Source of the DNA: Rhodopirellula halodulae | GTDB taxonomy: Bacteria; Planctomycetota; Planctomycetia; Pirellulales; Pirellulaceae | Assembly (NCBI RefSeq): GCF_020966775.1 | Contig: NZ_JAJKFV010000029.1 | Span: forward strand, 2,307,372 to 2,371,371 | Reading direction: 5' to 3' | Length of the DNA stretch: 64,000 nucleotides | Shown: piece by piece, positions 32,298-51,043 of the stretch | Layout: the number at the start of each line of letters is the position of its first letter | How positions within the stretch are numbered: position 1 is the first letter of the stretch | Position numbers and translations under genes: made by a program | The notes under the pieces: generated by a model | Told to the model about the DNA's origin: nothing | The model's database searches: none | Seen by the model: only the letters and a program-made list of their open reading frames with translations

Positions 32298-35200
32298 ATG
32301 TTCCATTTTCGTTCAATCGGATCGCGCGATAATCAACCAACGGATCAGGAGGTAAGTTCTCGCGGACGGGACGAACGTTTCCACACTCGCAAGCAACATC
32401 GACGCTCTTCGAAGCGGCGTCGTACTCGTTTGAGTTCCCTGCTGGGCGAGCGATTGGAAGAACGCCGTGTTTTGGCTGCTTACGTGGTCGACACCGCAAT
32501 GGATGTGGTTGCGGAAGACGGGATGGTGAGTCTCCGGGAAGCCATCCAGGCGGCGAACTCCAATGCCGCGGTCAATGCTGACACCATCGCTGGCGAACCG
32601 ACGGCGACTGCAGTTGATCGGATTACATTCGCCGAAGGATTGAGCAGTATCACGCTGAGCGGAGAACTGTCGATCACTGAGTCGATCGAGATTGCGCTCG
32701 GCGATGCGTCCAGCCAAATCATCAGCGGGGACGATGCATCCCGGATCTTTTCGATTGACACGTCCGGAGTGGATCCGATCGATGTCGACTTGAGTGGACT
32801 GACGTTGCAGGATGGCTTGGCGGAGTCCGGTGGTGCGATCTACCTCGGTCCGGGGCATTCACTCTCGATGACCAACATGACGTTGTCAGATAACGTCGCG
32901 ACGGGTGCCGCTGCGGACCAAGGTGGCGGTGCAATCTTCATTGATGGAGGAACCGCGACCATCACGGATTCGACGATCACCGGAAACGTCGCGAATGGTG
33001 CGTCAGGCAGCGGCGGCGGGATTTTGAACCAAGGCACGTTGGTCGTGTCCGGTGGTTCGATCAGTGAGAACGTTGCCAATCGCGCCGGTGGTGGGATCGA
33101 AGCGACCGGTGGAACGTCGACGACGCTGACCAATGTGTTGATGGATCAGAACGTGGCCGGACCGGATGGCACGGCGGCACCTGGAAACGGTGGTGCATTG
33201 CACATCAGCGGTGATGGTGACGCGACAATCACCGGCGGCACGGTCAGTAACAACGTGGCGGCTCGCGAGGGCGGTGGCTTGTGGAACAACACCGGTGCGA
33301 TGACCGTCAGCGGCACGACTTTGATTGGCAACATCGCCTCGGGTGATGCGGCTGATGACGGCGGTGGCGGTATCTTCAACAACGGTGGGACGTTGACGGT
33401 GTCTGATGCAACGCTGTCGGGCAACGCTGCGGACGGAACGCTTGGTAGCGGCGGAGCGATCTTCAGCATCGATGGCGATGTGACGATCAATTCGTCTCAG
33501 ATTGGCGGTCCGCTTGGTTCCGACGGGAACACCGCGAATCGTGCCGGTGGCGGCATCGAAGTGGTGGAAGGCAGCGTGACGTTGAACCTTGGGACGGACG
33601 TCTCCAACAACTTCGCCGGGATCAACGGTGGTGGTTTGCACTCGACGGGTGCAGCGGAAGTGATCTCGAATTTTTCGATCTTCGGTAGCAACGTTGCAGC
33701 CAGCGAAGGCGGGGGACTATGGAACTCGGCCACGGGGACCATGACGATCAACGGCGGAGCAATCTCTTCCAACACCGCCAGCGGTGATGCTGCTGACAAC
33801 GGTGGAGGTGGCTTGTTCAACGATGGCGGTGTGATGAATGTCGCCAACGCGGTGATCGGCTTCAACGTGGCCGATGGTGCGTCCGGAAGCGGCGGTGGAA
33901 TCCTGAATGATGGCGGAACGCTGACGATCACCGGCAACACCACGATCTCGGAGAACCGAGCCAATCGTGCTGGTGGTGGGATCGAAGCCACCGGTGGATC
34001 GACGAGCACTTTGACGGGTGTGTCGTTGGACTCCAACAACGTCGGGATCAGTCCCGCGGTTGCATCACCCGGCAATGGCGGTGGTTTGCACATCACGGGT
34101 GATGGTGACGTGACGATCACCGGCGGCACGGTCAACAACAATGTGGCGGCATCCGAGGGCGGTGGTCTTTGGAACGGTAGCGGTGTGATGACGGTGACAG
34201 GCACGACGATCGATGGCAACGTTGCAAGTGGCGACGATGCTGACAACGGTGGTGGTGGGATCTTCAATGTTGCTGGGACGGTGAACATCACTGACTCAAC
34301 GGTCACCGGAAACGTCGCGGATGGTGCGTCAGGCAGCGGCGGCGGAATTTTGAACCAAGGCACCTTGGTCGTGTCCGGTGGTTCGATCAGTGAGAACCTC
34401 GCCAACCGAGCTGGTGGCGGGATCGAAGCGACCGGTGGAACGTCGACGACGCTGACCAACGTGTTGATGGATCAGAATGTGGCTGGGCCGGATGGCACGG
34501 CGGCACCAGGGAACGGTGGTGCGTTGCACATCACCGGCGATGGAGTCGTCGAGCTGTTTGGTGGAACCGTTTCTGGCAACGTGGCAGCAGCCGAAGGCGG
34601 CGGGCTATGGAACAGTGTTTCCGGCAGCTTGAGTTTGGATGGGACGGAAGTCAGCGGCAATTCGGCTCCGATTGGCGGCGGTGTCTTCAATGACAGTGGT
34701 GTGGATCTTACGACGCAGACTTTCACGACCACTCTGAGCGAGCTGAATGATTCGGGAGTCGCCGGGACGGCGCGTGTCACGGTCGACACCAGTGATCCGG
34801 ACAACCCTTCGGTGACGGTATCGATTCAGGCATCGGGCTTGGTCCCCAACCAACCTCACATTCAACACATTCACGGCCGCTTTGCTTCGGACCTGGATTC
34901 CACCGGAACGATCGACGGGCCTTTCGTTGGCGATGGCGGTTCGTCGATCGATTCGCGAACGCCTGATTTAGGTGATGATACGAACGGTGATGGCTTCGTC
35001 ACCGTTGGTGAAGGATTGGCGGGTTACGGCAACGTGCTGTTGAACCTTTCTAGTCCACGGGCTCCGGTTCCGATCGAAGGCAACTCGCCGCTGGCTGATT
35101 TTGACCTGGCCGACTTTCCAACGGCTCCCGACGGAACGATCGACTTCAGTGAGACCTATGTTTTTGACTTAAGCGATTCGGATCAGGCTCGTCAGTACAA

Positions 35201-38200
35201 CAACCTGTTGCCGATGTCGCTGCGAGAGATCGTGCTTCATGGCGTGAACACCGACATTGACGTCGATGGTGACGGTTCACCGGATGGTTATCGAGTCACC
35301 GGTCCGGCGGCAGCGGGAACGCTTTCTGCAGTCGGCGGGACATTGACCATTGCGAACTCGACCATCACCGGGAACACGGCCTCGGGCAACGGCGGCGGAA
35401 TCGCGAATGAAAGCGGCCGCGTTACGATTACCGATTCGACGATTTCGCAGAACGTCAGCGGTGGCGATGAACTGGGCGAAGGTGGCGGAGGGATCTTCAA
35501 CGATGGCGGTACGGTCACGCTGACCGATACTGATGTATTTGAAAACACCGCGATCGTTGGACTTGGTAACGGCGGCGGCATTTTGAACAACTCGGGCGGT
35601 TTCTTGGTCGTTCGAAGCGGTTCGATTTCGGACAACGATGCGGCGCGAGCTGGCGGTGGCGTTGAGAACGCTGGTGAAGCGACGTTCTTTGAAGTCGAAA
35701 TGGATAGCAATGACACCGGGATCAATGGAGGCGCGCTACATACCTCGGGACCGTGGACCGCGAATTTCATTGATTCGGTGATCACGAACAACACGGCCGG
35801 AGCGGAGGGCGGCGGTGTTTGGAATAGCGACACCGGTGAGATGACATTGGTGGGTACAAGGGTGACCGGCAATACCGCCAGCGGCGATGAAGCGGATCAA
35901 GGCGGCGGCGGAGTGTTCAACGATGGTGGCGTGTTGATGATCACGACCTCGACGATCAGTGACAACGTCGCCGATGGAGTGTCGGGCAGTGGCGGTGGTG
36001 TGCTGAATACCGGCACGTTGACGGTGTCAGACTCAACGATCAGCGGCAACGTTGCCAATCGTGCTGGTGGTGGGATCGAAGCGACCGCGGGAACGACAAC
36101 AACACTCACAAATGTTGCATTGAATCTCAACAACGTCGGAATCAGTCCTGCCGCGGCGGCTCCAGGTAACGGCGGTGGTTTGCACATCACCGGCGATGGT
36201 GATGTGACGATCACGGGCGGCACGGTCAACAGCAACGTGGCGGCATCCGAGGGCGGTGGTCTTTGGAATGGCAGCGGTGTGATGTCCGTGACCGGCACAA
36301 CGATCGATGGCAACGTGGCCAGTGGCGACGATGCTGACAACGGTGGTGGTGGCGTCTTCAATGTTGCTGGGACGGTGAACATCACTGACTCGACGGTCAC
36401 CGGAAACGTCGCGGATGGTGCGTCCGGCAGCGGCGGCGGGATTTTGAACCAAGGCACTTTGGTCGTGTCCGGTGGTTCGATCAGTGAGAACGTCGCCAAC
36501 CGTGCTGGTGGCGGGATCGAAGCGACCGGTGGAACGTCAACGACGCTGACCAATGTGTTGATGGATCAGAACGTGGCCGGACCGGATGGCACGGCGGCAC
36601 CGGGTAACGGTGGTGCGTTGCACATCAGCGGCGATGGTGACGCGATAATCACCGGCGGCACGGTCAGCAACAACGTGGCGGCTCGCGAGGGCGGTGGCTT
36701 GTGGAACAACACCGGTGTGATGACCGTCAGTGGCACGACTTTGATTGGCAACATCGCCTCGGGTGATGCGGCCGATGACGGTGGTGGCGGTATCTTCAAC
36801 AACGGTGGAACGTTGACGGTGTCTGATGCGACGCTGTCAGGCAACGCGGCGGACGGAACGCTTGGTAGTGGCGGAGCGATCTTCAGCATTGATGGCGATG
36901 TGACGATCAATTCGTCTCAGATTGGCGGTCCGCTTGGTTCCGACGGGAACACCGCGAATCGTGCCGGTGGCGGCATCGAAGTGGTGGAAGGCAGCGTGAC
37001 GTTGAACCTTGGGACGGACGTCTCCAACAACTTCGCCGGGATCAACGGTGGTGGTATGCACTCGACCGGTGCAGCGGAAGTGATCTCGAATTTTTCGATC
37101 TTCGGTAGCAACGTTGCGGCCAGCGAAGGTGGTGGACTATGGAACTCTGCCACTGGAACGATGACGATCAACGGTGGAGCGATCTCCTCCAACGTCGCCA
37201 GCGGTGATGCTGCTGACAACGGTGGAGGTGGCTTGTTCAACGATGGTGGTGTGATGAATGTCGCCGACGCGGTGATCGGCTTCAACGTGGCCGATGGTGC
37301 GTCCGGAAGCGGCGGTGGAATCCTGAATGATGGCGGAACGCTGACGATCAGCGGCAACACCACGATCTCGGAGAACCGAGCCAATCGTGCTGGTGGTGGT
37401 ATCGAAGCCACCGGCGGATCGACGAGCACTTTGACGGGTGTGTCGTTGGACTCGAACAACGTCGGGATCAGTCCCGCGGTTGCATCACCCGGCAATGGCG
37501 GTGGTTTGCACATCACGGGCGATGGTGATGTGACGATCACGGGCGGCACGGTCAGCAACAACGTGGCGGCATCCGAGGGCGGTGGTCTTTGGAACGGCAG
37601 CGGTGTGATGACGGTGACCGGCACGACGATCGATGGCAACGTTGCCAGTGGCGACGATGCTGACAACGGTGGTGGTGGGATCTTCAATGTTGCTGGGACT
37701 TTGGTCGTGCAAGATTCGACCATCCAAAACAACGTCGCTGATGGTGCAGCCGGAAGCGGCGGTGGGATCTTCAATGCGGGGACCGCCACCATCACTGGCA
37801 CTGAGATCACAGAAAACACTGCGAATCGTGCTGGCGGTGGTTTGGAGGTCATCGACGGGACGACGACCACGATTTCGGCCAGCTTACTGGTGGACAACGT
37901 TGCTGGCCCGGATGGTTCAGCATCTCCCGGCAATGGTGGTGCACTTCATATCTCCGGCGGTGGTGAGGTGACGATTGTCGACACCTTGGTCGAAGGGAAC
38001 ACGGCGGCCAGCGAAGGAGGTGGTTTGTGGAATAGCAGCACCGGAACGTTGGTCGTCGAACGTTCAACGGTCTCAAACAACTTCTCTGTCGACGGAGGCG
38101 GTGTCTTCCAAGACGGCGACGCGGGGATTCTCGAACTGATCAATTCGACAATCGCGATGAACGCTGCGTCGAATGACGGTGGCGGGCTTCTCACCGAAGG

Positions 38201-39725
38201 CGGCAGCGTTGATTTGATCAGCGTCACCATTGCGGACAACGATGCCGCGACAGGTGGAGGCATGAAGGCTGACAGCGGTACCGTTTCGGTGATCAACTCC
38301 ATTGTTTCCCGCAACACGGCCACGACTGATTCAGACGTGTCGGGGGCGTATCAGGACGATGGAAATAACTTGGTTGGGACGGAAGCGGGACTGGGAACGC
38401 TCGGTGACAACGGTGGCCCCACCCCAACAATTGCTTTGATTCCAGGCAGTCCCGCTTTGGACGCGGGTATTCTCGCGGGATTGAGCGTCGACCAGCGAGG
38501 CGTCAGTCGACCGCAGGGAACGGGGGGCGACATTGGCGCGTTCGAGTCCGGATTGTCGGCTCCTGTGGCGGCTTCTTTGTCGATCGCGGCGGACGATGCG
38601 GCGATCGCAGAAGGCGATTCAGGCAACACGTCGTTCACCTTCACCGTGACTCGCAGTGACAACACGGCGGGAGCGATCTCTGCCAACTATTCCGTGATTG
38701 GTAGCGGGGAAAATTCCGCGGACGCGAGCGATTTCGGGGGCAGTTTCCCAAGCGGCGTTGTGAGCTTTGAAGACGGTCAATCGGTCGCGACAATCACGGT
38801 GAACGTGAGCGGAGACGAGACAGTCGAACCGAATGAATCGTTCACGGTAACGCTTGACTCGGCAAGTGACGGGGCTGTCATCGAGCAAGCTTCCGCCGTG
38901 GGCACGATCTTGAATGATGACATCAACGCGGTGGAGACCAGGATTCTGATTCCAGAGTTTGTGGCTCGACCTCACCTGCTGATTGGCGATGGGGTTCCAA
39001 CCGCGATCATCTTCCAGGCTTTGAGTAGCACGACGGTGACCGTGACCCCGGTCGCTCAGGCGAGCGTGAGTGAATCGGTGCGGATCGTGGATGCGGACAC
39101 TGTGACGATCAGTTCTTATCAGAACGGTGTTGCCACCGCCGATTTGGAAGCTGGCGAGTTGTACGCGGTGATCTTTGGTTCGCTGAGCACCGATCGGATC
39201 TATTCCATCCGTTCGTCCGCGGGTGTGGATTCGCTCACCAACCGAGCTGCGACAAACATTTTGCAACCGACCGACACCTCGGCCGACGGAGAAACCACCG
39301 CACTGGATGCCTTGATGGTGATTAATGAATTGAATCGCATGAGCGATGCCGGTGGTGAACCCTTGCTGGGTAGTTTCGTCGATGTCAACCGCGATGAGAA
39401 CGTCACCGCGTTGGATGCGTTGTTGGTAATCAATCACCTGAATCGCACGCAAGCCGTAGGCAACGCGGAAGGTGAGGCGATCGCTCCGCAAGCCTCGTTT
39501 GTTGGCAATCCTGATCGCGGCCTAACCGACGACGATGTCGATCAGGTCTTCGCCGATCAGCCGACAATGGGGGTCGGTGAAAATGTTGATTTGGTGCCCG
39601 TCGCGGATACGGTCTCCATGCCTGCTCAGGCCGCAGTTGTCGATGAAGTGATGGACGACTTGGGCGACGACGAAGCCTTGCCGCTTGTTCTCGAGGTTGA
39701 GCTTTTGGCGGGTTTGACGTTCTAA
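32298..39725 (+). CDS. Giant exported beta-helix repeat protein with CHRD, Calx-beta and dockerin domains
   Basis: 2475 residues. The N-terminus (RRSSKRRRTRLSSLLGERLEERRVLAA) is the planctomycete export motif of giant surface proteins. A CSLREA-like segment follows (VSLREAIQAAN). Then about 30 units of a Gly/Asn/Thr-rich polymorphic-membrane-protein repeat (pattern GGGIxNxGTLTVxxSTISGNxA) form a right-handed parallel beta-helix. A CHRD domain interrupts the repeats at about 804-1005 (HIQHIHGRF). After the helix come a Calx-beta domain (about 2094-2210, ending AVGTILNDD), a spacer, and a dockerin type I pair (about 2318-2385, DTSADGETTALDALMVINELN and a second DVNRDENVTALDALLVINHLN). It is probably a cell-surface or secreted adhesin or matrix protein. 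Long stretches of the gene are near-identical duplicates. Confidence 0.92.
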   Translation: MFHFRSIGSRDNQPTDQEVSSRGRDERFHTRKQHRRSSKRRRTRLSSLLGERLEERRVLAAYVVDTAMDVVAEDGMVSLREAIQAANSNAAVNADTIAGEPTATAVDRITFAEGLSSITLSGELSITESIEIALGDASSQIISGDDASRIFSIDTSGVDPIDVDLSGLTLQDGLAESGGAIYLGPGHSLSMTNMTLSDNVATGAAADQGGGAIFIDGGTATITDSTITGNVANGASGSGGGILNQGTLVVSGGSISENVANRAGGGIEATGGTSTTLTNVLMDQNVAGPDGTAAPGNGGALHISGDGDATITGGTVSNNVAAREGGGLWNNTGAMTVSGTTLIGNIASGDAADDGGGGIFNNGGTLTVSDATLSGNAADGTLGSGGAIFSIDGDVTINSSQIGGPLGSDGNTANRAGGGIEVVEGSVTLNLGTDVSNNFAGINGGGLHSTGAAEVISNFSIFGSNVAASEGGGLWNSATGTMTINGGAISSNTASGDAADNGGGGLFNDGGVMNVANAVIGFNVADGASGSGGGILNDGGTLTITGNTTISENRANRAGGGIEATGGSTSTLTGVSLDSNNVGISPAVASPGNGGGLHITGDGDVTITGGTVNNNVAASEGGGLWNGSGVMTVTGTTIDGNVASGDDADNGGGGIFNVAGTVNITDSTVTGNVADGASGSGGGILNQGTLVVSGGSISENLANRAGGGIEATGGTSTTLTNVLMDQNVAGPDGTAAPGNGGALHITGDGVVELFGGTVSGNVAAAEGGGLWNSVSGSLSLDGTEVSGNSAPIGGGVFNDSGVDLTTQTFTTTLSELNDSGVAGTARVTVDTSDPDNPSVTVSIQASGLVPNQPHIQHIHGRFASDLDSTGTIDGPFVGDGGSSIDSRTPDLGDDTNGDGFVTVGEGLAGYGNVLLNLSSPRAPVPIEGNSPLADFDLADFPTAPDGTIDFSETYVFDLSDSDQARQYNNLLPMSLREIVLHGVNTDIDVDGDGSPDGYRVTGPAAAGTLSAVGGTLTIANSTITGNTASGNGGGIANESGRVTITDSTISQNVSGGDELGEGGGGIFNDGGTVTLTDTDVFENTAIVGLGNGGGILNNSGGFLVVRSGSISDNDAARAGGGVENAGEATFFEVEMDSNDTGINGGALHTSGPWTANFIDSVITNNTAGAEGGGVWNSDTGEMTLVGTRVTGNTASGDEADQGGGGVFNDGGVLMITTSTISDNVADGVSGSGGGVLNTGTLTVSDSTISGNVANRAGGGIEATAGTTTTLTNVALNLNNVGISPAAAAPGNGGGLHITGDGDVTITGGTVNSNVAASEGGGLWNGSGVMSVTGTTIDGNVASGDDADNGGGGVFNVAGTVNITDSTVTGNVADGASGSGGGILNQGTLVVSGGSISENVANRAGGGIEATGGTSTTLTNVLMDQNVAGPDGTAAPGNGGALHISGDGDAIITGGTVSNNVAAREGGGLWNNTGVMTVSGTTLIGNIASGDAADDGGGGIFNNGGTLTVSDATLSGNAADGTLGSGGAIFSIDGDVTINSSQIGGPLGSDGNTANRAGGGIEVVEGSVTLNLGTDVSNNFAGINGGGMHSTGAAEVISNFSIFGSNVAASEGGGLWNSATGTMTINGGAISSNVASGDAADNGGGGLFNDGGVMNVADAVIGFNVADGASGSGGGILNDGGTLTISGNTTISENRANRAGGGIEATGGSTSTLTGVSLDSNNVGISPAVASPGNGGGLHITGDGDVTITGGTVSNNVAASEGGGLWNGSGVMTVTGTTIDGNVASGDDADNGGGGIFNVAGTLVVQDSTIQNNVADGAAGSGGGIFNAGTATITGTEITENTANRAGGGLEVIDGTTTTISASLLVDNVAGPDGSASPGNGGALHISGGGEVTIVDTLVEGNTAASEGGGLWNSSTGTLVVERSTVSNNFSVDGGGVFQDGDAGILELINSTIAMNAASNDGGGLLTEGGSVDLISVTIADNDAATGGGMKADSGTVSVINSIVSRNTATTDSDVSGAYQDDGNNLVGTEAGLGTLGDNGGPTPTIALIPGSPALDAGILAGLSVDQRGVSRPQGTGGDIGAFESGLSAPVAASLSIAADDAAIAEGDSGNTSFTFTVTRSDNTAGAISANYSVIGSGENSADASDFGGSFPSGVVSFEDGQSVATITVNVSGDETVEPNESFTVTLDSASDGAVIEQASAVGTILNDDINAVETRILIPEFVARPHLLIGDGVPTAIIFQALSSTTVTVTPVAQASVSESVRIVDADTVTISSYQNGVATADLEAGELYAVIFGSLSTDRIYSIRSSAGVDSLTNRAATNILQPTDTSADGETTALDALMVINELNRMSDAGGEPLLGSFVDVNRDENVTALDALLVINHLNRTQAVGNAEGEAIAPQASFVGNPDRGLTDDDVDQVFADQPTMGVGENVDLVPVADTVSMPAQAAVVDEVMDDLGDDEALPLVLEVELLAGLTF
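32961..34279 (+). repeat. Internal duplication A, copy 1
   Basis: About 1.3 kb inside the giant gene is repeated almost exactly 3420 bases downstream (copy 2 at 36381-37699), in frame (1140 codons). Comparing 33481-33720 with 36901-37140, I count five differences in 240 bases. Confidence 0.88.
34075..34542 (+). repeat. Internal duplication B, copy 1
   Basis: About 470 bases repeated 2094 bases downstream (36169-36636), again in frame (698 codons). It overlaps the end of duplication A, so the array holds nested copies. Confidence 0.8.
36169..36636 (+). repeat. Internal duplication B, copy 2
   Basis: Second copy of 34075-34542 at a fixed offset of 2094 bases. The 3' part coincides with the start of duplication A copy 2 and also resembles 32980-33210, giving three related copies of the shared unit. 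Confidence 0.8.
36381..37699 (+). repeat. Internal duplication A, copy 2
   Basis: Second copy of the block at 32961-34279, at a fixed in-frame offset of 3420 bases. Similarity drops sharply at the 3' end (after TGCTGGGAC at 37691-37699), which marks a recombination junction. Confidence 0.88.
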
Positions 39726-42428: not shown

Positions 42429-42899
42429 TCAGCTGGCTTTGTAAGCATCACGCAAATCGCGGATCTTATCGTGCCCGGCTTTCACCTTGGCGTACTGGGC
42501 GGTTAGCACATCATTCATCGCACTACCGGCGGTGTCCTTCAAGACATCCTCGTAGGCTTCCTTGATATGGTCTTCCCCACGTTCGGCTTCGATCAAGATC
42601 ACGGTGGCATCGCCTCCGTTCAGCTTGCCGCGAATGTTGATCCAGATGCGGTGCGTTTTGGCTGCGACGCTGCCGTCGTCCTCGGCTTCTTTTCCATTGA
42701 ACTCAACGTACTGCTGCAATTCGCTGGCCATGGCCGAACGTTCGTCACCAATCGAGCGGAACAGTGTTGAGAGACGTTCGTCTTTCAACTCTTCAGCGGA
42801 CTCGTGAAAACCGTTGTACGAATCAATGTTCGCACGAATCAGCTTTTGCAGCTTTGCGATGGTGGTTTCATTCAAATCAATTTTAGTTTCAACAGACAT
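42429..42899 (-). CDS. PA2169-type four-helix bundle protein (DUF2383)
   Basis: A 156-residue, mostly helical ferritin-like protein of the DUF2383/PA2169 family: KLQKLIRANIDSYNGFHESAEEL, LFRSIGDERSAMASELQQYV, and ERGEDHIKEAYEDVLKD with conserved Glu and His positions. Members may bind a metal, but the function is unknown; they are often found with stress genes. ATG 42899 is preceded by AAAGGA at a suitable distance. A terminator follows. It lies 210 bases downstream of the H-NOX kinase cluster and probably has its own promoter. Confidence 0.8.
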   Translation of the reverse strand: MSVETKIDLNETTIAKLQKLIRANIDSYNGFHESAEELKDERLSTLFRSIGDERSAMASELQQYVEFNGKEAEDDGSVAAKTHRIWINIRGKLNGGDATVILIEAERGEDHIKEAYEDVLKDTAGSAMNDVLTAQYAKVKAGHDKIRDLRDAYKAS

Positions 42900-43109: not shown

Positions 43110-44453
43110 TCAGGGCGATGGAGCTGATAGCGGCAGTTCCAAACAGACCGACGTCCCGCCCGCAGGGGTGGGAGAGACACGGATTTGGCCACCGTGCTGA
43201 TCGACGATCACGCTGTATACGAACGCGAGTCCCTGCCCCATGCCTTGGCCGACCTCTTTGGTCGTGAAGAACGGTTCGAAGATGCGATCCAAGATGGATT
43301 CGGGAATGCCGGGGCCGTTGTCGTTGACCATGACCCGTGCGGTTTCTTCGGTTCGCTCGGTGTGAACAGTGATCTTTCCGAGGTGGACTCGATCATCGTG
43401 TTGCAACGCTTCGCAGGCATTTGCAAGCAAGTTTAGGATGCATTGATTGATCTGGACTGCATTGCAGGGAACATCGTTCAGAGTGGAATCAAGGTTGGTT
43501 GCAATCTCAGCGACATCTTGATAGTGGTTTTGCGAAACCTTGATCGCGTTGCGAATCGATCGATTCAAATCCACCAATGCTTTGCAGTCGGCAGTGGGAC
43601 TGGAAAACTCTTTCATGGCACGGACGATGCCGGCGACTCGTTCAATGCCATCAATCGATTGTTGGATGGCTGTGGGGAGTTCTTCCTTCAGGAACGGAAT
43701 GTCGGCTGATTCGATCCGTTGTCGGATCTGTTGCAAATTGGATGCAAACGTATCCGACGAAGTCTCCGTTTGTGGAAAGGAGTCGTAGGCATCGAAAAGC
43801 GCCTCCAGATCGGTGAAGGCATTCTGCAGGAACAGCAAATTGTCTCCGATGAACTGGATCGGCGTGTTGATCTCGTGGGCGATTCCCGCCGCCAGGTTTC
43901 CGACCGACTCCATCTTGCGAGCCTGGTTCAAACGCGACTCCAAGATCTTTCGCTGGGATAGATCGCGAACCAGCATGGTGAAGAGGACAAGGCCGTTGCG
44001 GACACAACGACTGATAGCAACCTCCGCACAGAAGCTGGTCCCGCCGTTTCGACGCGCTGACAACTCGATCGGATGCGCACGGCACATCCCGTCTTCAGGC
44101 GAGACTTCAAGCGGATGATCGTCCTCCGATGTTGGCATGCAATTTGGAAACAAGGCATCGTGAGTTGCCGACTGCTCTTCGAATAGATCTTGGATTTGCA
44201 CGGCGACGACATATTCGCGACCGAACAGCTCGCAGGCGGATCGATTGAAGGTTTCGATGCACCCTGATTCGTCGTAAACGATGATGCCTTCGGCGGCCGT
44301 TTCCACGATCGCTTTGGTGCGTTCGGCAAGGTCAATCAGTTTTTCGTTGGTTTCATAAACCTCACGCGACTTCTGCTCGAGCAACTGCTCGGCAGATTTT
44401 CGTGCGGCTTTTTCTCTGGCAAGCCGTCTTTGCAGCAATTCCAATTCGGACAT
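43110..44453 (-). CDS. Soluble PAS-domain histidine kinase
   Basis: A 447-residue kinase without membrane helices. Residues 1-45 form a coiled coil (LQRRLAREKAARKSAEQLLEQK), about 46-170 a PAS domain (AEGIIVYDESGCIETFN), then the H-box with phosphoacceptor H193 (GIAHEINTPIQFIGDN) and the HATPase (NLLANACEAL, DNGPGIPE, GMGQGLAF). ATG 44453 follows the H-NOX stop by 23 bases; earlier ATGs overlap the H-NOX gene. The coiled-coil N-terminus resembles the start of other kinases of this type. It is the last gene of the cluster and, being next to H-NOX, is the best candidate H-NOX-associated kinase. Confidence 0.9.
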   Translation of the reverse strand: MSELELLQRRLAREKAARKSAEQLLEQKSREVYETNEKLIDLAERTKAIVETAAEGIIVYDESGCIETFNRSACELFGREYVVAVQIQDLFEEQSATHDALFPNCMPTSEDDHPLEVSPEDGMCRAHPIELSARRNGGTSFCAEVAISRCVRNGLVLFTMLVRDLSQRKILESRLNQARKMESVGNLAAGIAHEINTPIQFIGDNLLFLQNAFTDLEALFDAYDSFPQTETSSDTFASNLQQIRQRIESADIPFLKEELPTAIQQSIDGIERVAGIVRAMKEFSSPTADCKALVDLNRSIRNAIKVSQNHYQDVAEIATNLDSTLNDVPCNAVQINQCILNLLANACEALQHDDRVHLGKITVHTERTEETARVMVNDNGPGIPESILDRIFEPFFTTKEVGQGMGQGLAFVYSVIVDQHGGQIRVSPTPAGGTSVCLELPLSAPSP

Positions 44454-44475
44454 GAGTCGATCCGATGAGGTGGAT

Positions 44476-45021
44476 TCAACAAGCGATGGGTGTAATCCGG
44501 AACTCCGCTTCCGTTCCATCTTTGGCACCCAAATTCTCGCGTGCAATCTCGACGTGATCGCCGTAGTGCTCGGCGGTGGCTTGGATCAGACCTTCGGCGA
44601 GATCAGCGAAGGGGCGTTTGGATCGATAGGTCATGACCAGCGTTTGGCCATCCATCGAACAATCAAATGATGGAAGCTCCGCATCTGGATAAAGCTTTCG
44701 CACTTCGACGTGGATATAACTTTCGACGAGAGGCAAGAAGTCAAATGTTGATTTCGATGCTGCAAAAAACTGTGGATACAACGCGTGGAATCGACCCAGC
44801 AGATGGACGCCGAAGGATCGGACCAATTCGGGAACCGGCACATTGGTCTCCGCCGACAAGGAAAGAACCAATTGGATTAATTGACCGTGGTCGTAGGTCC
44901 CCACCGCGGTGTACGCACCATCGTTTTCCAAATCCGCACCCACGATCATGCGGTCGGCGATCTCGATGCCAAGATCGTTTTCCACCATCTCAATCAATTC
45001 AGTGAATACGATGCCCTTCAT
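44476..45021 (-). CDS. H-NOX heme-based NO/O2 sensor
   Basis: A 181-residue stand-alone H-NOX (HNOB) domain binding heme b to sense NO, sometimes O2. Hallmarks: it starts MKGIVFTELIEMV; the proximal histidine is H104 in ESYIHVEVRKLYP; the heme-propionate motif YxSxR is Y132-S134-R136 (YRSKR). The positions match the Thermoanaerobacter H-NOX almost exactly (H102, Y131, S133, R135). Stand-alone H-NOX proteins regulate a neighbouring kinase (HnoX/HaHK) by inhibiting it when NO is bound. The gene lies between two kinase genes in an eight-gene signalling cluster. Ligand preference cannot be deduced without the distal-pocket residues in a structure. Confidence 0.92.
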   Translation of the reverse strand: MKGIVFTELIEMVENDLGIEIADRMIVGADLENDGAYTAVGTYDHGQLIQLVLSLSAETNVPVPELVRSFGVHLLGRFHALYPQFFAASKSTFDFLPLVESYIHVEVRKLYPDAELPSFDCSMDGQTLVMTYRSKRPFADLAEGLIQATAEHYGDHVEIARENLGAKDGTEAEFRITPIAC

Positions 45022-45129
45022 GATTCATCCGTCCTTCAAAACGAGAATTGGTGGAGCCTGCCCCTGGAGGCTGGTGGCGTTTTAACAGTGAGTATTGAAA
45101 ACGTCAAACTTTTGGGGGCAACGATTGGT

Positions 45130-46512
45130 TCATGTGGCGGCCGGTTGGCGGACGCAGGGAAGTCGCATGGTGACCTTGGTGCCAATGCCGGCTTCACTTT
45201 CGATGCTGATTGAACCGTTGTGTTTCTCAAAGATGCCATAGGCGATGGAAAGCCCAAGCCCGGTTCCTTCGCCAACCGCTTTGGTTGTGAAGAAGGGCTC
45301 GAAGACATGTTCAATGTCAGACGCATCGATCCCAATGCCGTTGTCTTCCACAACGATGGTGATGTTGGAATCAATCACATCCGTCCGTAACGTGATGCTG
45401 CCGCCGTTGCGACTGGCTTGACCGGAGTTCAACAACACCCCCGCGATGGCTTGCCCGACTTCAGCGGTGTTGCACTGCACCGTAGGCAATTCGGACAAAT
45501 TCATCTCGACCTCGCAATCCTTTGGTAACTGAGCCGCGATGAGGTTGCAGGTGTTTTGCACGATCTCGTTAACACTCGCTTCCGATTTCCCGTTTCGGTC
45601 GACTTGTGAGAAGTCTTTCAAACCCTTCACGATGGACTTGATGCGAGCCACCCCGTCGCGGGTCTCTTCCACCAAACTTTTCGTGTCTTCGATGACGAAG
45701 GCGAGTTCCTGTTCCTCGGCATTGGATTGCAGTTTGGAAAGTTCCTCCGGCGTATCAACATCCGCGCTGACCAGGGATTCGCAGAGTGTTTCATACAGTC
45801 CGATGGTGGACTCGATGACTTGGATGTAGTCGTTCAGCGTCGTCAGATTCGCATCGACAAAGAACAGCGGGTTGTTGATTTCGTGGGCAACACCCGATGC
45901 CAGAACGCCGACCGAAGCCATCTTGGCGGAGTGGACCAACTGTGCCTGTTGTTCCGCAAGATGACGATTGGCGTCCTTCAGTTTGGCGTTGACCGCAACC
46001 AGCGAATCCATGGCTTCGGAGTAGGAGGCCGCAAGGTCCAATCGCATCAAATCCAAGCAGAAGTGACATTCGATCTCGCCAAATTCCGTGTTCAAGACAC
46101 ATTTGCCGGTTCGGAACTTGGGATATCGGATCTGACCAAAGTAGATTCTTGGTGCGGTGATCGTGAGTTTGGCATAGGATTCCTGCAAACCAACGATGGC
46201 TTCACCGACGATGGTATTGAGCGTTTCGGACATCGCGTCGCAGATGTCTTCCCGGATCTCTTCGCGGTTCTCGTCGGTGATGGTCGTATCCATGCCGATG
46301 ATTGCGGCCGCGGTGGATTCGTCCATCGCCAACATGTATTCCCCGTAGACCGTTCCTGTGTAATAAATCGACAGGATGAAAGATTTCTCTGTTTGGACGG
46401 AGTTGGTGGTTTCAACTTTTGACACGGCCGGCGGTTGGATGCCAAACATTTCCGAACAAGTTCGACTGGCAATCGAAGCGAAGGCGTCGGTGTAGCGGGT
46501 GACGTTGTCCAT
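45130..46512 (-). CDS. Histidine kinase with N-terminal CheX-like domain
   Basis: A 460-residue soluble kinase. Residues 1-155 resemble CheX/CheC phosphatases: the beta strands SIYYTGTVYGEYMLAMDEST and an ExxN motif (E96, N99 in SETLNTIVGEA). A short coiled coil (175-195) leads to the phosphoacceptor H210 (GVAHEINNPLFFVD) and a HATPase (DNGIGIDASD, then GEGTGLGLSIAYG). CheX hydrolyses phosphorylated receivers, so fusion to a kinase suggests both writing and erasing of the same signal (inference). Start ATG 46512 is 2 bases after the stop of the receiver gene upstream. Confidence 0.82.
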   Translation of the reverse strand: MDNVTRYTDAFASIASRTCSEMFGIQPPAVSKVETTNSVQTEKSFILSIYYTGTVYGEYMLAMDESTAAAIIGMDTTITDENREEIREDICDAMSETLNTIVGEAIVGLQESYAKLTITAPRIYFGQIRYPKFRTGKCVLNTEFGEIECHFCLDLMRLDLAASYSEAMDSLVAVNAKLKDANRHLAEQQAQLVHSAKMASVGVLASGVAHEINNPLFFVDANLTTLNDYIQVIESTIGLYETLCESLVSADVDTPEELSKLQSNAEEQELAFVIEDTKSLVEETRDGVARIKSIVKGLKDFSQVDRNGKSEASVNEIVQNTCNLIAAQLPKDCEVEMNLSELPTVQCNTAEVGQAIAGVLLNSGQASRNGGSITLRTDVIDSNITIVVEDNGIGIDASDIEHVFEPFFTTKAVGEGTGLGLSIAYGIFEKHNGSISIESEAGIGTKVTMRLPCVRQPAAT

Positions 46513-46514
46513 CT

Positions 46515-46901
46515 TTAAACAGTCCTTCCGGCGGCTTCTTCGATTGCCTCGCACAAGCGTTCGAGGTCGGCTGGGCTTCCGGGACGAATGGGCTTTTTCA
46601 GAAAACCACACGCGCCGTATTCGAGACAACGGTCAATGGTTTCCTGATCTTGAATGGCCGACAGCATCACCACGCGAGCGTCGGAATCCATGCGGCGCAC
46701 GTGTTGCAAACATTCCACTCCGTCCATGTTCGGCATGGTGATGTCAAGCAACAGAACATCCGGACGGTTCGATTCGTACTGGGCGACACCTTCGTGCCCG
46801 TCGAATCCCACTCCAACGACTTCGAAGCCCATTCGCTCAACAAGTGCTTTGACTTGCTTGGCCATGAACTTACTGTCGTCGACGACTACAACTCGGATCA
46901 T
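46515..46901 (-). CDS. Single-domain receiver (CheY-like)
   Basis: A 128-residue receiver with acidic D8/D9, phosphoacceptor D53 (LLDITMPNMDG), switch S81 and K103 (LKKPIRP). No output domain. It lies two bases upstream of the CheX-kinase gene, so the latter is its likely partner. It could be a phosphate sink or an intermediate relay. Confidence 0.92.
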   Translation of the reverse strand: MIRVVVVDDSKFMAKQVKALVERMGFEVVGVGFDGHEGVAQYESNRPDVLLLDITMPNMDGVECLQHVRRMDSDARVVMLSAIQDQETIDRCLEYGACGFLKKPIRPGSPADLERLCEAIEEAAGRTV

Positions 46902-46967
46902 TGGGACGGGTCCTTCACGGAATGTGGTTGGATGGTTGTGGCAGGCTTCGTGTGCGACGAGTTCCGG

Positions 46968-47372
46968 TCAGGTGACCGAAGAGTGCTTTTCCAGATAATC
47001 GTCGGGGATGGTTGCTAGTCCGTCGCGGATGGCCAACGCCAATTCGACGTCGCGGATCGGTTTGGTTAGGAAGCGAAACACACCTCCGCGATTGATAACG
47101 TCCTGGGCTAAACGGACATTGGGATGGCCGGTGAGCATGATGCGAACCGATTCCGGGAAGTGTTCGCTGATCCAAGCGATCAGTTCTGAGCCAGGGCTGC
47201 CGCCTAGGTTTTGGTCGACCACCGACAGATCGAACGCTTCGCGGCGAAACATGCTCTGAGCCTCTTCGCTGGACCGAGCGATGTAGAGTTTGTAGGGCTG
47301 GTCGCGAAGGGAGCGGCGTAGGCCGCGAAGCAAATTGAGGTCGTCGTCAACGAGGAGGATAGAGTGCTGCAT
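46968..47372 (-). CDS. Single-domain receiver
   Basis: A 134-residue receiver with DDD at 9-11, phosphoacceptor D53 (VVDQNLGG), T81 and K104 (LTKPIRD). The QNLGGSPG loop after the phosphoacceptor differs from the usual xMPxMDG, suggesting a specialised partner. No output domain. Separated from both neighbours by about 60 bases on the same strand. Confidence 0.9.
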   Translation of the reverse strand: MQHSILLVDDDLNLLRGLRRSLRDQPYKLYIARSSEEAQSMFRREAFDLSVVDQNLGGSPGSELIAWISEHFPESVRIMLTGHPNVRLAQDVINRGGVFRFLTKPIRDVELALAIRDGLATIPDDYLEKHSSVT

Positions 47373-47429
47373 GGTTTTGTGTTCTCAGTTTTGGGTTGCT
47401 ACGGATGTGGCGAGGTCGTTGGTGGACAA

Positions 47430-48566
47430 TCAGCTTGCCATGCTGGACGTGACGGACGATGTGTCGATGGGAACCATTCGCCGGACATGAATCGGTTCGC
47501 GAACTCCGCTGCCCGAGTTATGGAGCGAGATCAGTTTGTGAATCAGCGTTTCGTGCATTTCGTTGCCACGCGCGATCAGCACACGACCCGCGAGGTCAAC
47601 CACGTTCTCTTCGAGCACCATGCCTTCGGACAGTTCGGCAACGCTGACTTCCGCGTCTTGGAACGTGGACTGCACAAACTCGCTGAGATGCCGAAGTGCC
47701 GCCGCGTCGTATTCGGGGCGTCCTTCCATCGCACGCAGAGCCGCCAGTGGCGATGCGTTGGTTCGGATGCGTTGGAAATCGCCAACGACACGTAGCACAC
47801 GCGCGGTCGGCAAGGTCGGATCGGTAGGTGGCTCATATTGGGTAGCGATGATCTCGGCAACTCCCTCCAACCGAGGAATTGTCGAGACCAAGTCGCTACC
47901 CAATCGCGCCGAGTCTTCGATGGCTTTTCGTTCGACTGAGTTCAGGTCCTCATCGTTGAGGTATCGGTCAATGATTTCCGGCGGAAGGGAAACGCATCCG
48001 ATACGCATCAGCATCGCTGCGATTTCGACTTCCCAAATGGGACGAAGCTGCATGCCATTGGCGATTGCCCGAGAAAGCGTGCGTGCTTCTTGAGTCAAAC
48101 CGAAGGCACTGGGCATGGTCAGCGAGAGAACTTGGGTCAGCATGCGAATGCTGCCCGAAAGCGTGTTGTTCAGCAGTTCCGATTCCGCCGTGATCAGCCG
48201 GTAGTGCTCAAGTGCAGCGTCCAACGTTTTCGAAAACGCCTCGGCCGCGCAGGGTTTACTCAGAAAGCGGAAGATGCTGCCTTCGTTGACGGCATCCACC
48301 GCGGTCTTTTGATCCGCGTTTCCTGTCAGCATCACACGAACGGTTTGCGAATTGAGTTGTCGAATGTGTCCCAATAATTGAACACCATTCATGACCGGCA
48401 TTTGCATGTCGGAAACGACGACGGCAAACGGTCCGTTTTCTTTGTACTCTTCAATCGCAGCGGCCCCGCCGACGGCGAGCGTCAGGTCGTATCGTTTGCG
48501 GAGTTGGCGTTTGATGCCTTGCAAAACGTTGGGTTCATCGTCGACCAAAAGGATTTTCTTGTTCAC
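47430..48566 (-). CDS. Receiver with degenerate HD-GYP-like domain
   Basis: A 378-residue protein. Receiver at 1-120: acidic D9/D10, D53 (VVSDMQMPVMNG), T81, K104. The C-terminal half resembles an HD-GYP domain in layout (AMLMRIGCVSLPPEII; ARLGSDLVSTIPRLEGVAEIIATQYEPP), but the HD at 187-188 is MR, the HxxxG His is Ser (S219), and the GYP and downstream His residues are not recognisable. It is therefore predicted to be unable to bind the metals and to hydrolyse cyclic-di-GMP; it may be a pseudo-enzyme that binds partners. Start GTG 48566 overlaps the HDOD gene stop (GTGA); an ATG further upstream is unsupported. Confidence 0.82.
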   Translation of the reverse strand: MNKKILLVDDEPNVLQGIKRQLRKRYDLTLAVGGAAAIEEYKENGPFAVVVSDMQMPVMNGVQLLGHIRQLNSQTVRVMLTGNADQKTAVDAVNEGSIFRFLSKPCAAEAFSKTLDAALEHYRLITAESELLNNTLSGSIRMLTQVLSLTMPSAFGLTQEARTLSRAIANGMQLRPIWEVEIAAMLMRIGCVSLPPEIIDRYLNDEDLNSVERKAIEDSARLGSDLVSTIPRLEGVAEIIATQYEPPTDPTLPTARVLRVVGDFQRIRTNASPLAALRAMEGRPEYDAAALRHLSEFVQSTFQDAEVSVAELSEGMVLEENVVDLAGRVLIARGNEMHETLIHKLISLHNSGSGVREPIHVRRMVPIDTSSVTSSMAS

Positions 48567-49771
48567 GACACATTCTCCAAACCGACGGCGCCTTTCCAAA
48601 TGTCCAAACGGTCGGTGACTCCCAGTCGTTGGAGGTAAGCATGGTCGAGTTGACCGCTGGATATCGTTTCGGCTCCTCCCGCAGCAATCGTGTCGTTGCA
48701 CCATGCGTTGGCAACGTGGACTGCTGTCAAAGGTGTGAATTGAGTGTCGTGAGCATCGCTGGGGCGGTGATGAAGGGCGACTGCCTCAACGATGGACTGT
48801 GAGAGTCCCCACAATCCCAGCAAATGAGCACCGACGGAATCAAATGTGGTGTCCGAGGGGTTTCGGGTCGCGTCGCCGAGTTGCTTCAGCCACTCCTTGT
48901 AGTTTGGCGGAGTGGACGGTGAGTCCGACGATTGCTGTATGGAGAAAATCAGTTTGCCAATGTCGTGCAGCAAGCCAGCGATGAAAGCCTCGTCATGCAG
49001 TTCGGCTTGATCACTTTCGGTTTGGGCAATGCGACGCGCTGCATTCGCAACTGAAAGACCATGTTGAATTTCGCGGTCCATCTGACTCGCTTGCTGGTCA
49101 TCGCCGTCGAACTTTCGAAAACCTTTGGAATCAAGAGCCAAAGGCCGGATCACGTTCAGGCCCAGCAGTGAAACGGCATGTTTGGGCGAGGTCACGTGGC
49201 TGGGAAGCCCGAAGAAAGATGAGTTGACCAGTTGAAGCACTTTCGCACTCATCGCCAAATCGTTCTCGATGATTGAGCCAACCTTTTCGATGCAAGCGTC
49301 CTCCGACTGAAGCTCTTTGACCAGCTCGTTGAAGACATCGGGCAAGCTCGGCAGAGATGTGATTTGGCTGCTGAGCTGCAACAATTCTTCGTTGGGTAAG
49401 TGGTCCTGCAGATTAAGAGCCTGTTCGATGGTTTGCATCAATCGATCTGGATCGCACGGCTTGGAAAGAAACTGATGAGCTGGCCCGATCACTCGGAAAA
49501 TCTTTTCCTGTTCGGATTGACCGCTGAGAACCAAACGGACGGTGTGCGGGTGTTCTTTCGATACTCGAGTCAGTAATTCCGCCCCATCCATGATGGGCAT
49601 TCGCATGTCAGAAACGATCACGTCGACACGCTGCTCCTGAAGCAGTTCCAAGGCTTTGTCGGATCCACAAGCAAAGTGCATGTCCCAAACTTTGCGTTGC
49701 CCGCGGAGCATCCGCCGCAATCCCGAGAGGACGTTGGCTTCGTCGTCAACAAACAGAATCTGTCGTTTCAT
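48563..49771 (-). CDS. Receiver-HDOD signalling protein
   Basis: A 402-residue protein. The receiver (1-120) has D9/D10, D55 (VSDMRMPIMDG) and the conserved Lys (LSKPCDP). An HDOD domain follows (about 132-350), with LPSLPDVFNELVKEL, IENDLAMSAKVLQLVNSSFFG, and a His-Asp pair in GLLHDIGKLIF. HDOD proteins regulate signalling through protein contacts and lack the full catalytic ligand set of HD hydrolases. It overlaps the next gene by GTGA and follows the first kinase by 3 bases. Confidence 0.9.
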   Translation of the reverse strand: MKRQILFVDDEANVLSGLRRMLRGQRKVWDMHFACGSDKALELLQEQRVDVIVSDMRMPIMDGAELLTRVSKEHPHTVRLVLSGQSEQEKIFRVIGPAHQFLSKPCDPDRLMQTIEQALNLQDHLPNEELLQLSSQITSLPSLPDVFNELVKELQSEDACIEKVGSIIENDLAMSAKVLQLVNSSFFGLPSHVTSPKHAVSLLGLNVIRPLALDSKGFRKFDGDDQQASQMDREIQHGLSVANAARRIAQTESDQAELHDEAFIAGLLHDIGKLIFSIQQSSDSPSTPPNYKEWLKQLGDATRNPSDTTFDSVGAHLLGLWGLSQSIVEAVALHHRPSDAHDTQFTPLTAVHVANAWCNDTIAAGGAETISSGQLDHAYLQRLGVTDRLDIWKGAVGLENVS

Positions 49772-49774
49772 GGG

Positions 49775-51043
49775 TTACACCTCGGTGTGAATGGGAGATT
49801 GCGGTGCGTGAACGACGCAGACGGGTGCGGTTGGCATGGAGGGGGCGGCGAACGTGCTGCCTTCGCGTCGCGCTTCCAACGGCACTTGGATAATGAAGGT
49901 GGTGCCGACGCCGACTTCGCTTTCGACTTCGATCCGACCTCCGTGGTTTTCGACGATCACCGTTTGCGCGATGGCCAAACCTTGCCCGGTACCTTTGCCA
50001 GCGGCTTTAGTCGTGTAAAACGGAGCGAACACCTTTTCGACGTCTTCGGCGGGAATGCCAGTGCCCGAATCCGCGATGCGGATTTCAGCGTGCGTTCCAC
50101 GGAGATGAGTGGAAACCTTGATGGTTCCTTTCTCACCGGGGCGATCACGAATGGTGTCTCCAATCGCGTGGGCGGCGTTCACCACCATGTTCAAAAGAAC
50201 CTGGTTGAGTTCACCGGGCAAACATGGAACCAATGGGACCTCGGGATCGAATTCCGTTTCCAACTCGGCCACGTATTTCCACTCATTGCGAGCGACCATC
50301 AATGTGTTTTCAATCGACTTGGGCAGGTCCGTCGGAACCATCTCCGAAACGCCGGGATGAGCAAATTCTTTCATCGCCCGAACGATGTTGGCGACTCGGT
50401 CAACGCCTTCCAATGTTTGCCGAATGGCGGATGGAACCTCTTCCATCAAGTAATCAATGTCGGTCTCTTCCAAGAGAACGCGGATCTCGGACGCAACATC
50501 AGCCGACCCAGCGTTATGTGCCAGTTCGCTGCATCGGCTGAGTGCGTCAATGAGATCCACGCATGAGTCTTGTACAAAGCGAGTGTTGTCGCCGACGTAT
50601 TGGATCGGCGTATTGATCTCGTGAGCGATGCCGGCCGCGAGTTCGCCAATCGATTCCAGTTTCTGTGCTTGAGCCAAACGTTGTTCCAAACGGTTCAAAC
50701 GTTCTGCGAGCGTGATGTTCGCCTGGATGGCTGAGTTTTGACGCGGATCGAGAATGCAATCCAAGAAGCCTTGTTCGTAGGCGTCTTCCATCACGGAAGA
50801 ATCATCGTTGGTCAAAGCCACCAAATAGTGACAGTGTGTTCGAAGCAGATCGAGGAAGGCTTCGGGTGAGTCGCTGTAGGTGAGCGGAAAACGAACGAAC
50901 GCCGCCGAGAGCGGTTCCTTCGAAATCGCCGATTGGGTTTCTTGTTCCGAACCAGAAGTGGAGACTCGAATGCTTTCGGTTGCGATCCTGTCTGCCCAGG
51001 CATCACGCAGTTGCGAATCGGGATCAACGATCAGGACATGCAT
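49775..51043 (-). CDS. Soluble histidine kinase with degenerate receiver-like N-terminus
   Basis: A 422-residue kinase without membrane helices. Residues 1-115 have a receiver-like start (HVLIVDPDSQLRDAW) but no clear phosphoacceptor Asp or following MPxMDG; it is probably a pseudo-receiver. The kinase core has H141 (GIAHEINTPIQYVGDNTRF), the N box NMVVNAAHAIGD, and DSGTGIPAEDVEKVFAPFYTTK and GTGQGLAIAQTV. The H-box is very similar to that of the kinase at 43110-44453, so the two are probably paralogues. ATG 51043 is preceded by GGAGGAG, the strongest ribosome site in the cluster. It is the first gene, so the promoter is upstream of it. Confidence 0.88.
   Translation of the reverse strand: MHVLIVDPDSQLRDAWADRIATESIRVSTSGSEQETQSAISKEPLSAAFVRFPLTYSDSPEAFLDLLRTHCHYLVALTNDDSSVMEDAYEQGFLDCILDPRQNSAIQANITLAERLNRLEQRLAQAQKLESIGELAAGIAHEINTPIQYVGDNTRFVQDSCVDLIDALSRCSELAHNAGSADVASEIRVLLEETDIDYLMEEVPSAIRQTLEGVDRVANIVRAMKEFAHPGVSEMVPTDLPKSIENTLMVARNEWKYVAELETEFDPEVPLVPCLPGELNQVLLNMVVNAAHAIGDTIRDRPGEKGTIKVSTHLRGTHAEIRIADSGTGIPAEDVEKVFAPFYTTKAAGKGTGQGLAIAQTVIVENHGGRIEVESEVGVGTTFIIQVPLEARREGSTFAAPSMPTAPVCVVHAPQSPIHTEV

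Follow-up and report, generated by a model that had tools for sequence, protein, structure and literature searches.

In the 64,000-nucleotide stretch of Rhodopirellula halodulae DNA analysed here (the window), eight genes on the minus strand (positions 43110–51043) encode what is probably a nitric oxide (NO)-responsive, multi-kinase two-component hub organised around an H-NOX sensor protein. An earlier note on this DNA had read it as a branched relay around H-NOX with protein–protein outputs, its spacings consistent with one operon. Our analysis supports a branched system around H-NOX that is conserved and probably co-transcribed and whose regulators lack an obvious catalytic output; the cluster is real and conserved, and the unit is probably functional.

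All eight frames are open, and Pfam assigned to them the domain types that the earlier note had read at this place (E-values in brackets). In transcription order, they encode HK1, a histidine kinase with an aspartate-less receiver-like N-terminus (49775–51043; HATPase_c, 4.8e-26); REC-HDOD, a response regulator with a receiver (REC) and an HDOD domain (48563–49771; Response_reg, 4.6e-22; HDOD, 5.7e-44); REC-dead-HD-GYP, a NosR-like response regulator (47430–48566; Response_reg, 5.8e-20; HD_5, 4.3e-20); REC4, a stand-alone receiver and core member (46968–47372; Response_reg, 2.1e-17); REC5, a CheY-like receiver paired with the following gene (46515–46901; Response_reg, 2.4e-26); CheX-HK, a fusion of a CheX phosphatase-like domain to a histidine kinase (45130–46512; CheX, 1.1e-11; HATPase_c, 1.5e-22); H-NOX, a heme NO-sensor protein (44476–45021; HNOB, 5.3e-37); and PAS-HK, a soluble PAS kinase and the likely H-NOX partner (43110–44519; PAS_9, 1.7e-8; HATPase_c, 2.6e-24). 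HATPase_c was thus found in all three kinases. Intergenic spacings in the same order are 3, −4, 57, 66, 2 and 108 bases, followed by −44 between H-NOX and PAS-HK; the start of the latter is ambiguous (TTG 44546, ATG 44519 or ATG 44453), and the last spacing becomes +22 if translation begins at ATG 44453. Judged from these spacings, a single transcript for the eight genes is likely. Promoter and terminator scans gave matches not above those of shuffled sequence, and no tRNA was found in the window. A mobile element inside the cluster was considered and rejected, as the longest direct repeats belong to the kinase genes, where paralogy would account for them.

Conservation was assessed in 396 genomes of the order and in a phylum sample of 392 genomes, using gene maps built with our own open reading frame (ORF) picker and profiles of the window's relatives rather than curated annotation. 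H-NOX occurs in 93 of the order genomes and 42 of the phylum sample; dead-HD-GYP profile matches (E 1e-10, some of them weak) occur in 76 of the order genomes, and the two lie at most 10 kb apart in 15, the window's included. In a tree of 49 REC-HD-GYP proteins scoring >150 bits, the window protein falls into a ten-row clade (support 100/100), with those of loci L073 and L074 as its neighbours (99/91). At all ten loci of this clade, six core genes (H-NOX, PAS-HK, HK1, REC-HDOD, REC-dead-HD-GYP and a lone receiver) stand together on the same strand, the PAS-HK frame being split at one of them (L089), and the lone receiver gene invariably comes after REC-dead-HD-GYP. Gene order inside each block is unchanged across the clade, and the blocks take one of two orders: the H-NOX block comes first in seven loci and last in the window, L073 and L074, where REC5 and CheX-HK lie between. 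With ten loci, six core genes and one of two block orders, the association exceeds chance. Lack of conservation had been named beforehand as one finding that would refute the cluster; its conservation at ten loci led us to discard an array of unrelated regulators.

These gene maps also bear on a rival explanation that we judge rather unlikely, namely that two or three independent systems lie side by side with no shared phosphoryl flow: H-NOX/PAS-HK with an unlinked target, HK1/REC-HDOD/REC-dead-HD-GYP/REC4 with another signal, and REC5/CheX-HK. The two block orders favour it, as does the occurrence of CheX-HK away from the hub in six of ten genomes. So does the behaviour of the output module on its own: in 40 chosen regions around dead-HD-GYP matches (38 from other genomes, 2 from the window's own), H-NOX was present in one (L168), and REC-HDOD directly preceded REC-dead-HD-GYP in 23 of the 39 regions without H-NOX. 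Against independence stand the presence of H-NOX, PAS-HK and the HK1 block together at every clade locus and the existence of several distant loci (L086, L099, L102, L105 and L168) where REC-HDOD and/or REC-dead-HD-GYP comes straight after H-NOX/PAS-HK, with no HK1. Furthermore, HK1 and PAS-HK are close paralogues, their cores sharing 42% identity over 277 amino acids (aa) as compared to 32% for each against CheX-HK, a closeness that suits common receivers.

Supported branches of the dead-HD-GYP tree record at least four switches between loci with and without H-NOX, and the kinase preceding the H-NOX-free module bears a receiver in some regions and PAS domains in others. Because the module is common without H-NOX and its kinases are varied, H-NOX behaves like an exchangeable plug-in sensor on an HDOD/dead-HD-GYP module, as far as gene neighbourhoods indicate. 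Its likeliest direct partner is PAS-HK, since a kinase directly follows stand-alone H-NOX in 47 of 52 loci examined (40 chosen H-NOX regions, mostly stand-alone frames, together with ten other loci, L168 and the window; this set is no census). Other genes were seen beside H-NOX as well. A histidine-phosphatase superfamily (branch 1) gene lies just upstream of H-NOX/PAS-kinase/REC-HDOD at L086 (9637–10233) and could encode a phosphohistidine phosphatase of the same pathway; an O6-methylguanine-DNA methyltransferase gene just upstream of H-NOX at L105 (8394–8984) hints at a link to nitrosative DNA damage. In genomes of family f107, most H-NOX matches fall in open frames of ~500 aa, where H-NOX is probably fused to another domain.

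The window H-NOX carries the features expected of a heme sensor. Its HNOB match scored 127.7 bits against a curated cut-off of 25.5 (PF07700), and residues 1–177 of 181 align with the solved H-NOX 6ocv (4e-42). The heme signature of H-NOX proteins consists of a proximal histidine and a YxSxR motif, and both are kept here as IHVEV and YRSKR, aligning with 6ocv, 6bde, 2kii and relatives. A distal tyrosine marks O2-binding H-NOX proteins; the window protein contains no tyrosine between YRSKR and HYGD, a stretch reaching up to the next helix end. Because the heme motifs are kept and no tyrosine follows YRSKR, NO is more likely to be the ligand than O2, so that of the "NO or O2" sensing proposed in the earlier note, the NO part is favoured and the O2 part disfavoured. 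H-NOX proteins of some bacteria do bind O2, which lends something to the idea of a hub that senses oxygen or heme redox state and tunes attachment to the oxygen level. The missing tyrosine speaks against this, and of the closest solved relatives, 6ocv has a heme NO-binding annotation, and 6bde and 6bdd were deposited under an unrelated name; we regard oxygen sensing as improbable.

The three window kinases have the H-boxes HEINT, HEINN and HEINT, which fit the H-E/D-x-x-T/N motif given for kinases with phosphatase activity in PMC12570481 (articles cited here and below are represented by excerpts). The phospho-accepting aspartate is kept in REC-HDOD, REC-dead-HD-GYP, REC4 and REC5. At E 0.01, Pfam found no receiver in HK1. 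The N-terminus of this kinase can be aligned with the intact receivers of related kinases, and the phospho-aspartate is absent, so the label "pseudo-receiver kinase" given earlier is right. This aspartate is lost from the HK1-type kinases of all ten clade loci, the window included, and kept in all eight of the other related kinases aligned (L103, L107, L108, L153, L154, L157, L158 and L160). HK1 thereby resembles the aspartate-less receiver (ALR) domains treated in PMC4395418, which are receiver-like and have no phospho-aspartate; it differs from those cases in that the kinase behind the domain has more distant relatives in which the residue is kept.

The HD-GYP domain in the window was correctly called dead: MR stands in place of HD, and no GYP stretch can be recognised. 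An intact HD motif was found in none of 54 rows scoring >100 bits; the profile used was built from dead domains and is biased towards them, live-HD relatives at L107 and L108 scoring <50 bits with it. Some dead-HD-GYP rows retain part of the GYP stretch, and that of L189 reads GYP. Five related loci (L072, L081, L087, L093 and L103) also encode a REC-HD-GYP whose HD and GYP are both intact, as read from the motifs at all five, with Pfam run in addition at L081 and L087; two of the five, L072 and L081, belong to the ten-locus clade. The window genome holds GGDEF domains at 9 places, EAL domains at 4 and HD_5 matches at 9, with the HD motif in six proteins. A second REC-dead-HD-GYP gene of this genome (L151, 9259–10425, contig C33) has no kinase in the surrounding region and a close relative, L175, in the congeneric genome G733.

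Taken as a hub, the cluster would operate as follows. H-NOX would bind NO and control the adjacent PAS-HK through protein contact; PAS-HK and its paralogue HK1, as kinases or phosphatases, would act on shared REC-HDOD, REC-dead-HD-GYP and REC4; and the phosphorylated regulators would work through partner binding. By analogy with HnoD, which inhibits HnoB in Shewanella, the dead HD-GYP most likely tunes a cyclic di-GMP (c-di-GMP) enzyme encoded in trans, elsewhere in the genome, this being the simplest reading. In favour of the hub, the NosR model (NF053512) is the best NCBIfam match of REC-dead-HD-GYP, REC-HDOD and REC4 alike.

Several observations weigh against this scheme. No c-di-GMP enzyme is encoded in the window cluster, as judged with Pfam on the eight proteins, and the GYP pattern is also matched in only two of the six HD-motif proteins of the window genome. 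The NosR score of REC-dead-HD-GYP, 185.8 bits, lies below the cut-off of 400 and derives partly from the common receiver domain. H-NOX is absent from 33 of the 49 tree rows and from the 23 of 39 module regions counted above, so NO is not the module's general input. The YxSxR motif is altered in the H-NOX of L083, and in that of L103 (9039–9614) an arginine replaces the proximal histidine and the arginine of YxSxR is gone, making this protein perhaps heme-free. Finally, among six genomes of the genus compared, only the window's contains the cluster.

REC5 and CheX-HK, separated by 2 bases, are an add-on to the core, as their distribution indicates. The same pair recurs at L073, L074 and, on the opposite strand, L087. 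The CheX-HK type was found in 10 of 392 genomes: within the hub in the window genome, G576 and G635, beside the hub on the opposite strand in G397, and elsewhere in six. ExxN is the phosphatase motif of CheX, and it is kept (E96, N99) in all four aligned copies of the domain. The two proteins may form a separate kinase-plus-phosphatase pair of this sub-lineage that drains or resets the shared signal. In one genome (G769, contig C53, 15823–21471), a CheX-kinase gene lies ~5 kb from a REC-dead-HD-GYP gene, and the H-NOX genes sit on different contigs; the two modules may therefore also come together outside the hub.

A second sensor gene adjoins H-NOX in the sister loci. Directly upstream of H-NOX, nine of the ten clade loci (L072, L073, L074, L077, L078, L079, L081, L083 and L089) carry a stand-alone BLUF photosensor gene (158–182 aa), which Pfam recognised in all nine at 103.6–110.3 bits (cut-off 25). 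Across the order, 42 of 396 genomes have BLUF matches, at 49 places in total (45 above the cut-off), nine of the 49 lying at most 1 kb upstream of an H-NOX. The window has a 108-base gap at the corresponding position with no detectable remnant, and a hidden BLUF was rejected by a profile search of pieces of at least 12 aa over 44401–46700 (best E 0.73); the sole BLUF match of the window genome sits on a different contig, with ABC-transporter-like and adaptor-like frames next to it. Loss of BLUF from the window operon is the simplest reading, because the sister rows L073 and L074 carry it. In the nine sister loci, BLUF would serve as a second input. We offer, tentatively and with slightly less than even confidence, the view that one planctomycete lineage plugs H-NOX (NO) and BLUF (blue light) into one catalysis-free receiver set, and that in the window the light input has gone and a CheX-kinase arm for resetting is present. 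The modular hub of this two-sensor view would consist of a kinase, REC-HDOD, REC-dead-HD-GYP and often a lone receiver, with sensors plugged in.

The missing BLUF gene, present at nine of ten clade loci, could also mark a decaying remnant, that is, an operon that has lost BLUF and a co-encoded phosphodiesterase (PDE) and is on its way out; absence of the cluster from the five other genus genomes compared, and a transposase gene at the site in G733, point the same way. We consider such decay very improbable, as none of the eight frames is interrupted, the kinase, receiver and heme motifs are intact, and a live REC-HD-GYP is present in only two of the ten clade loci, so its absence is not peculiar to the window. 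Within the genus, the G733 site has glycosyltransferase and DUF2383 genes ~2 kb apart with no cluster between, and the cluster was either gained in the window lineage or lost in G733. The frame at that site (L195, 10173–12236) is of the ISAzo13 type. Another congeneric genome, G725, encodes a different H-NOX with a hybrid kinase (L070). The earlier note had taken the flagellin and glycosyltransferase genes around the cluster as a hint of a motility output; since the flanks are adjacent in G733 without the cluster, they are no argument for such an output, and this hint falls away. Two neighbours deserve mention in their own right: the DUF2383/PA2169-type four-helix protein at 42429–42899 is 98% identical in G733, an unusually strong conservation (65% for the glycosyltransferase on the other side), and a repetitive ORF of 2475 aa at 32298–39725 probably encodes a surface protein, with what we take to be a dockerin-like C-terminal motif.

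The relay had been described as of an unrecognised kind, a claim overtaken by two comparable systems. The first is the Hno network of Shewanella oneidensis, with two kinases, three regulators and a degenerate HD-GYP (PMC6335343). In the excerpted text, HnoD, the degenerate HD-GYP protein, suppresses the PDE HnoB (PMC6335343), and its domain is called an inactive diguanylate cyclase instead in PMC8738867. As in the window, Hno (HnoX, HnoK, HnoS; HnoB, HnoC, HnoD) pairs a stand-alone H-NOX with a kinase, directs two kinases at shared regulators (a sharing that we infer for the window) and includes a degenerate-HD-GYP regulator (PMC6335343, PMC8846402); a soluble histidine kinase likewise adjoins the window H-NOX, PAS-HK overlapping or following it. 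Unlike the window, Hno has EAL (HnoB) and helix-turn-helix (HnoC) regulators, neither family being present among the eight window proteins by Pfam, whereas REC-HDOD, lone receivers and CheX-kinase, along with BLUF in the sister loci, set the planctomycete system apart. The second is NosP/NosK/NosR, in which a REC-degenerate-HD-GYP is described as the target of an NO-modulated kinase (PMC12570481). The two systems share this type of regulator, NosR being the best NCBIfam match of the window protein, and differ in that the window has an H-NOX rather than a FIST sensor, scores below the NosR cut-off, and has more kinases and receivers; NosP as a sensor of the window genome was rejected, with no PF08495 match in the genome.

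H-NOX followed directly by a PAS-containing kinase is also seen in Bacteroidota, Verrucomicrobiota and other Planctomycetota (L032–L040), where, in contrast to the window, there is one, often hybrid, kinase and no REC-HDOD/REC-dead-HD-GYP module was seen. The sister-loci BLUF, absent from the window, is comparable to PapB-type stand-alone BLUF, a short protein that influences a c-di-GMP pathway in trans (PMC8846402); the excerpts of that article treat H-NOX and BLUF separately. Multi-kinase H-NOX networks with a degenerate HD-GYP (Hno) and REC-degenerate-HD-GYP regulators (NosPKR) are thus already known. New here are the partnership with HDOD and CheX-kinase proteins, an HD-GYP lineage that is dead throughout, and the pairing of BLUF with H-NOX. 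A literature search that left most subscription papers outside it returned no paper joining H-NOX with HDOD, H-NOX with Planctomycetes, or BLUF with HDOD, which is weak evidence of novelty; H-NOX and BLUF occurred together in three papers, and H-NOX, blue light and histidine kinase in seven.

Two features come as a surprise, and neither could have been seen in the window by itself: the pairing with BLUF at the sister loci, and an HDOD/dead-HD-GYP module that is exchangeable. In the excerpted reviews, c-di-GMP enzymes are the end point of H-NOX pathways; in this planctomycete lineage, H-NOX is kept on a module that has no evident working enzyme. Should NO and blue light feed the same kinases, the sister loci would offer a two-input circuit of natural origin in which the roles of HDOD and dead HD-GYP domains could be tested; furthermore, sequence comparison across the repeated gains and losses of H-NOX on one module would show changes in kinase–receiver specificity.

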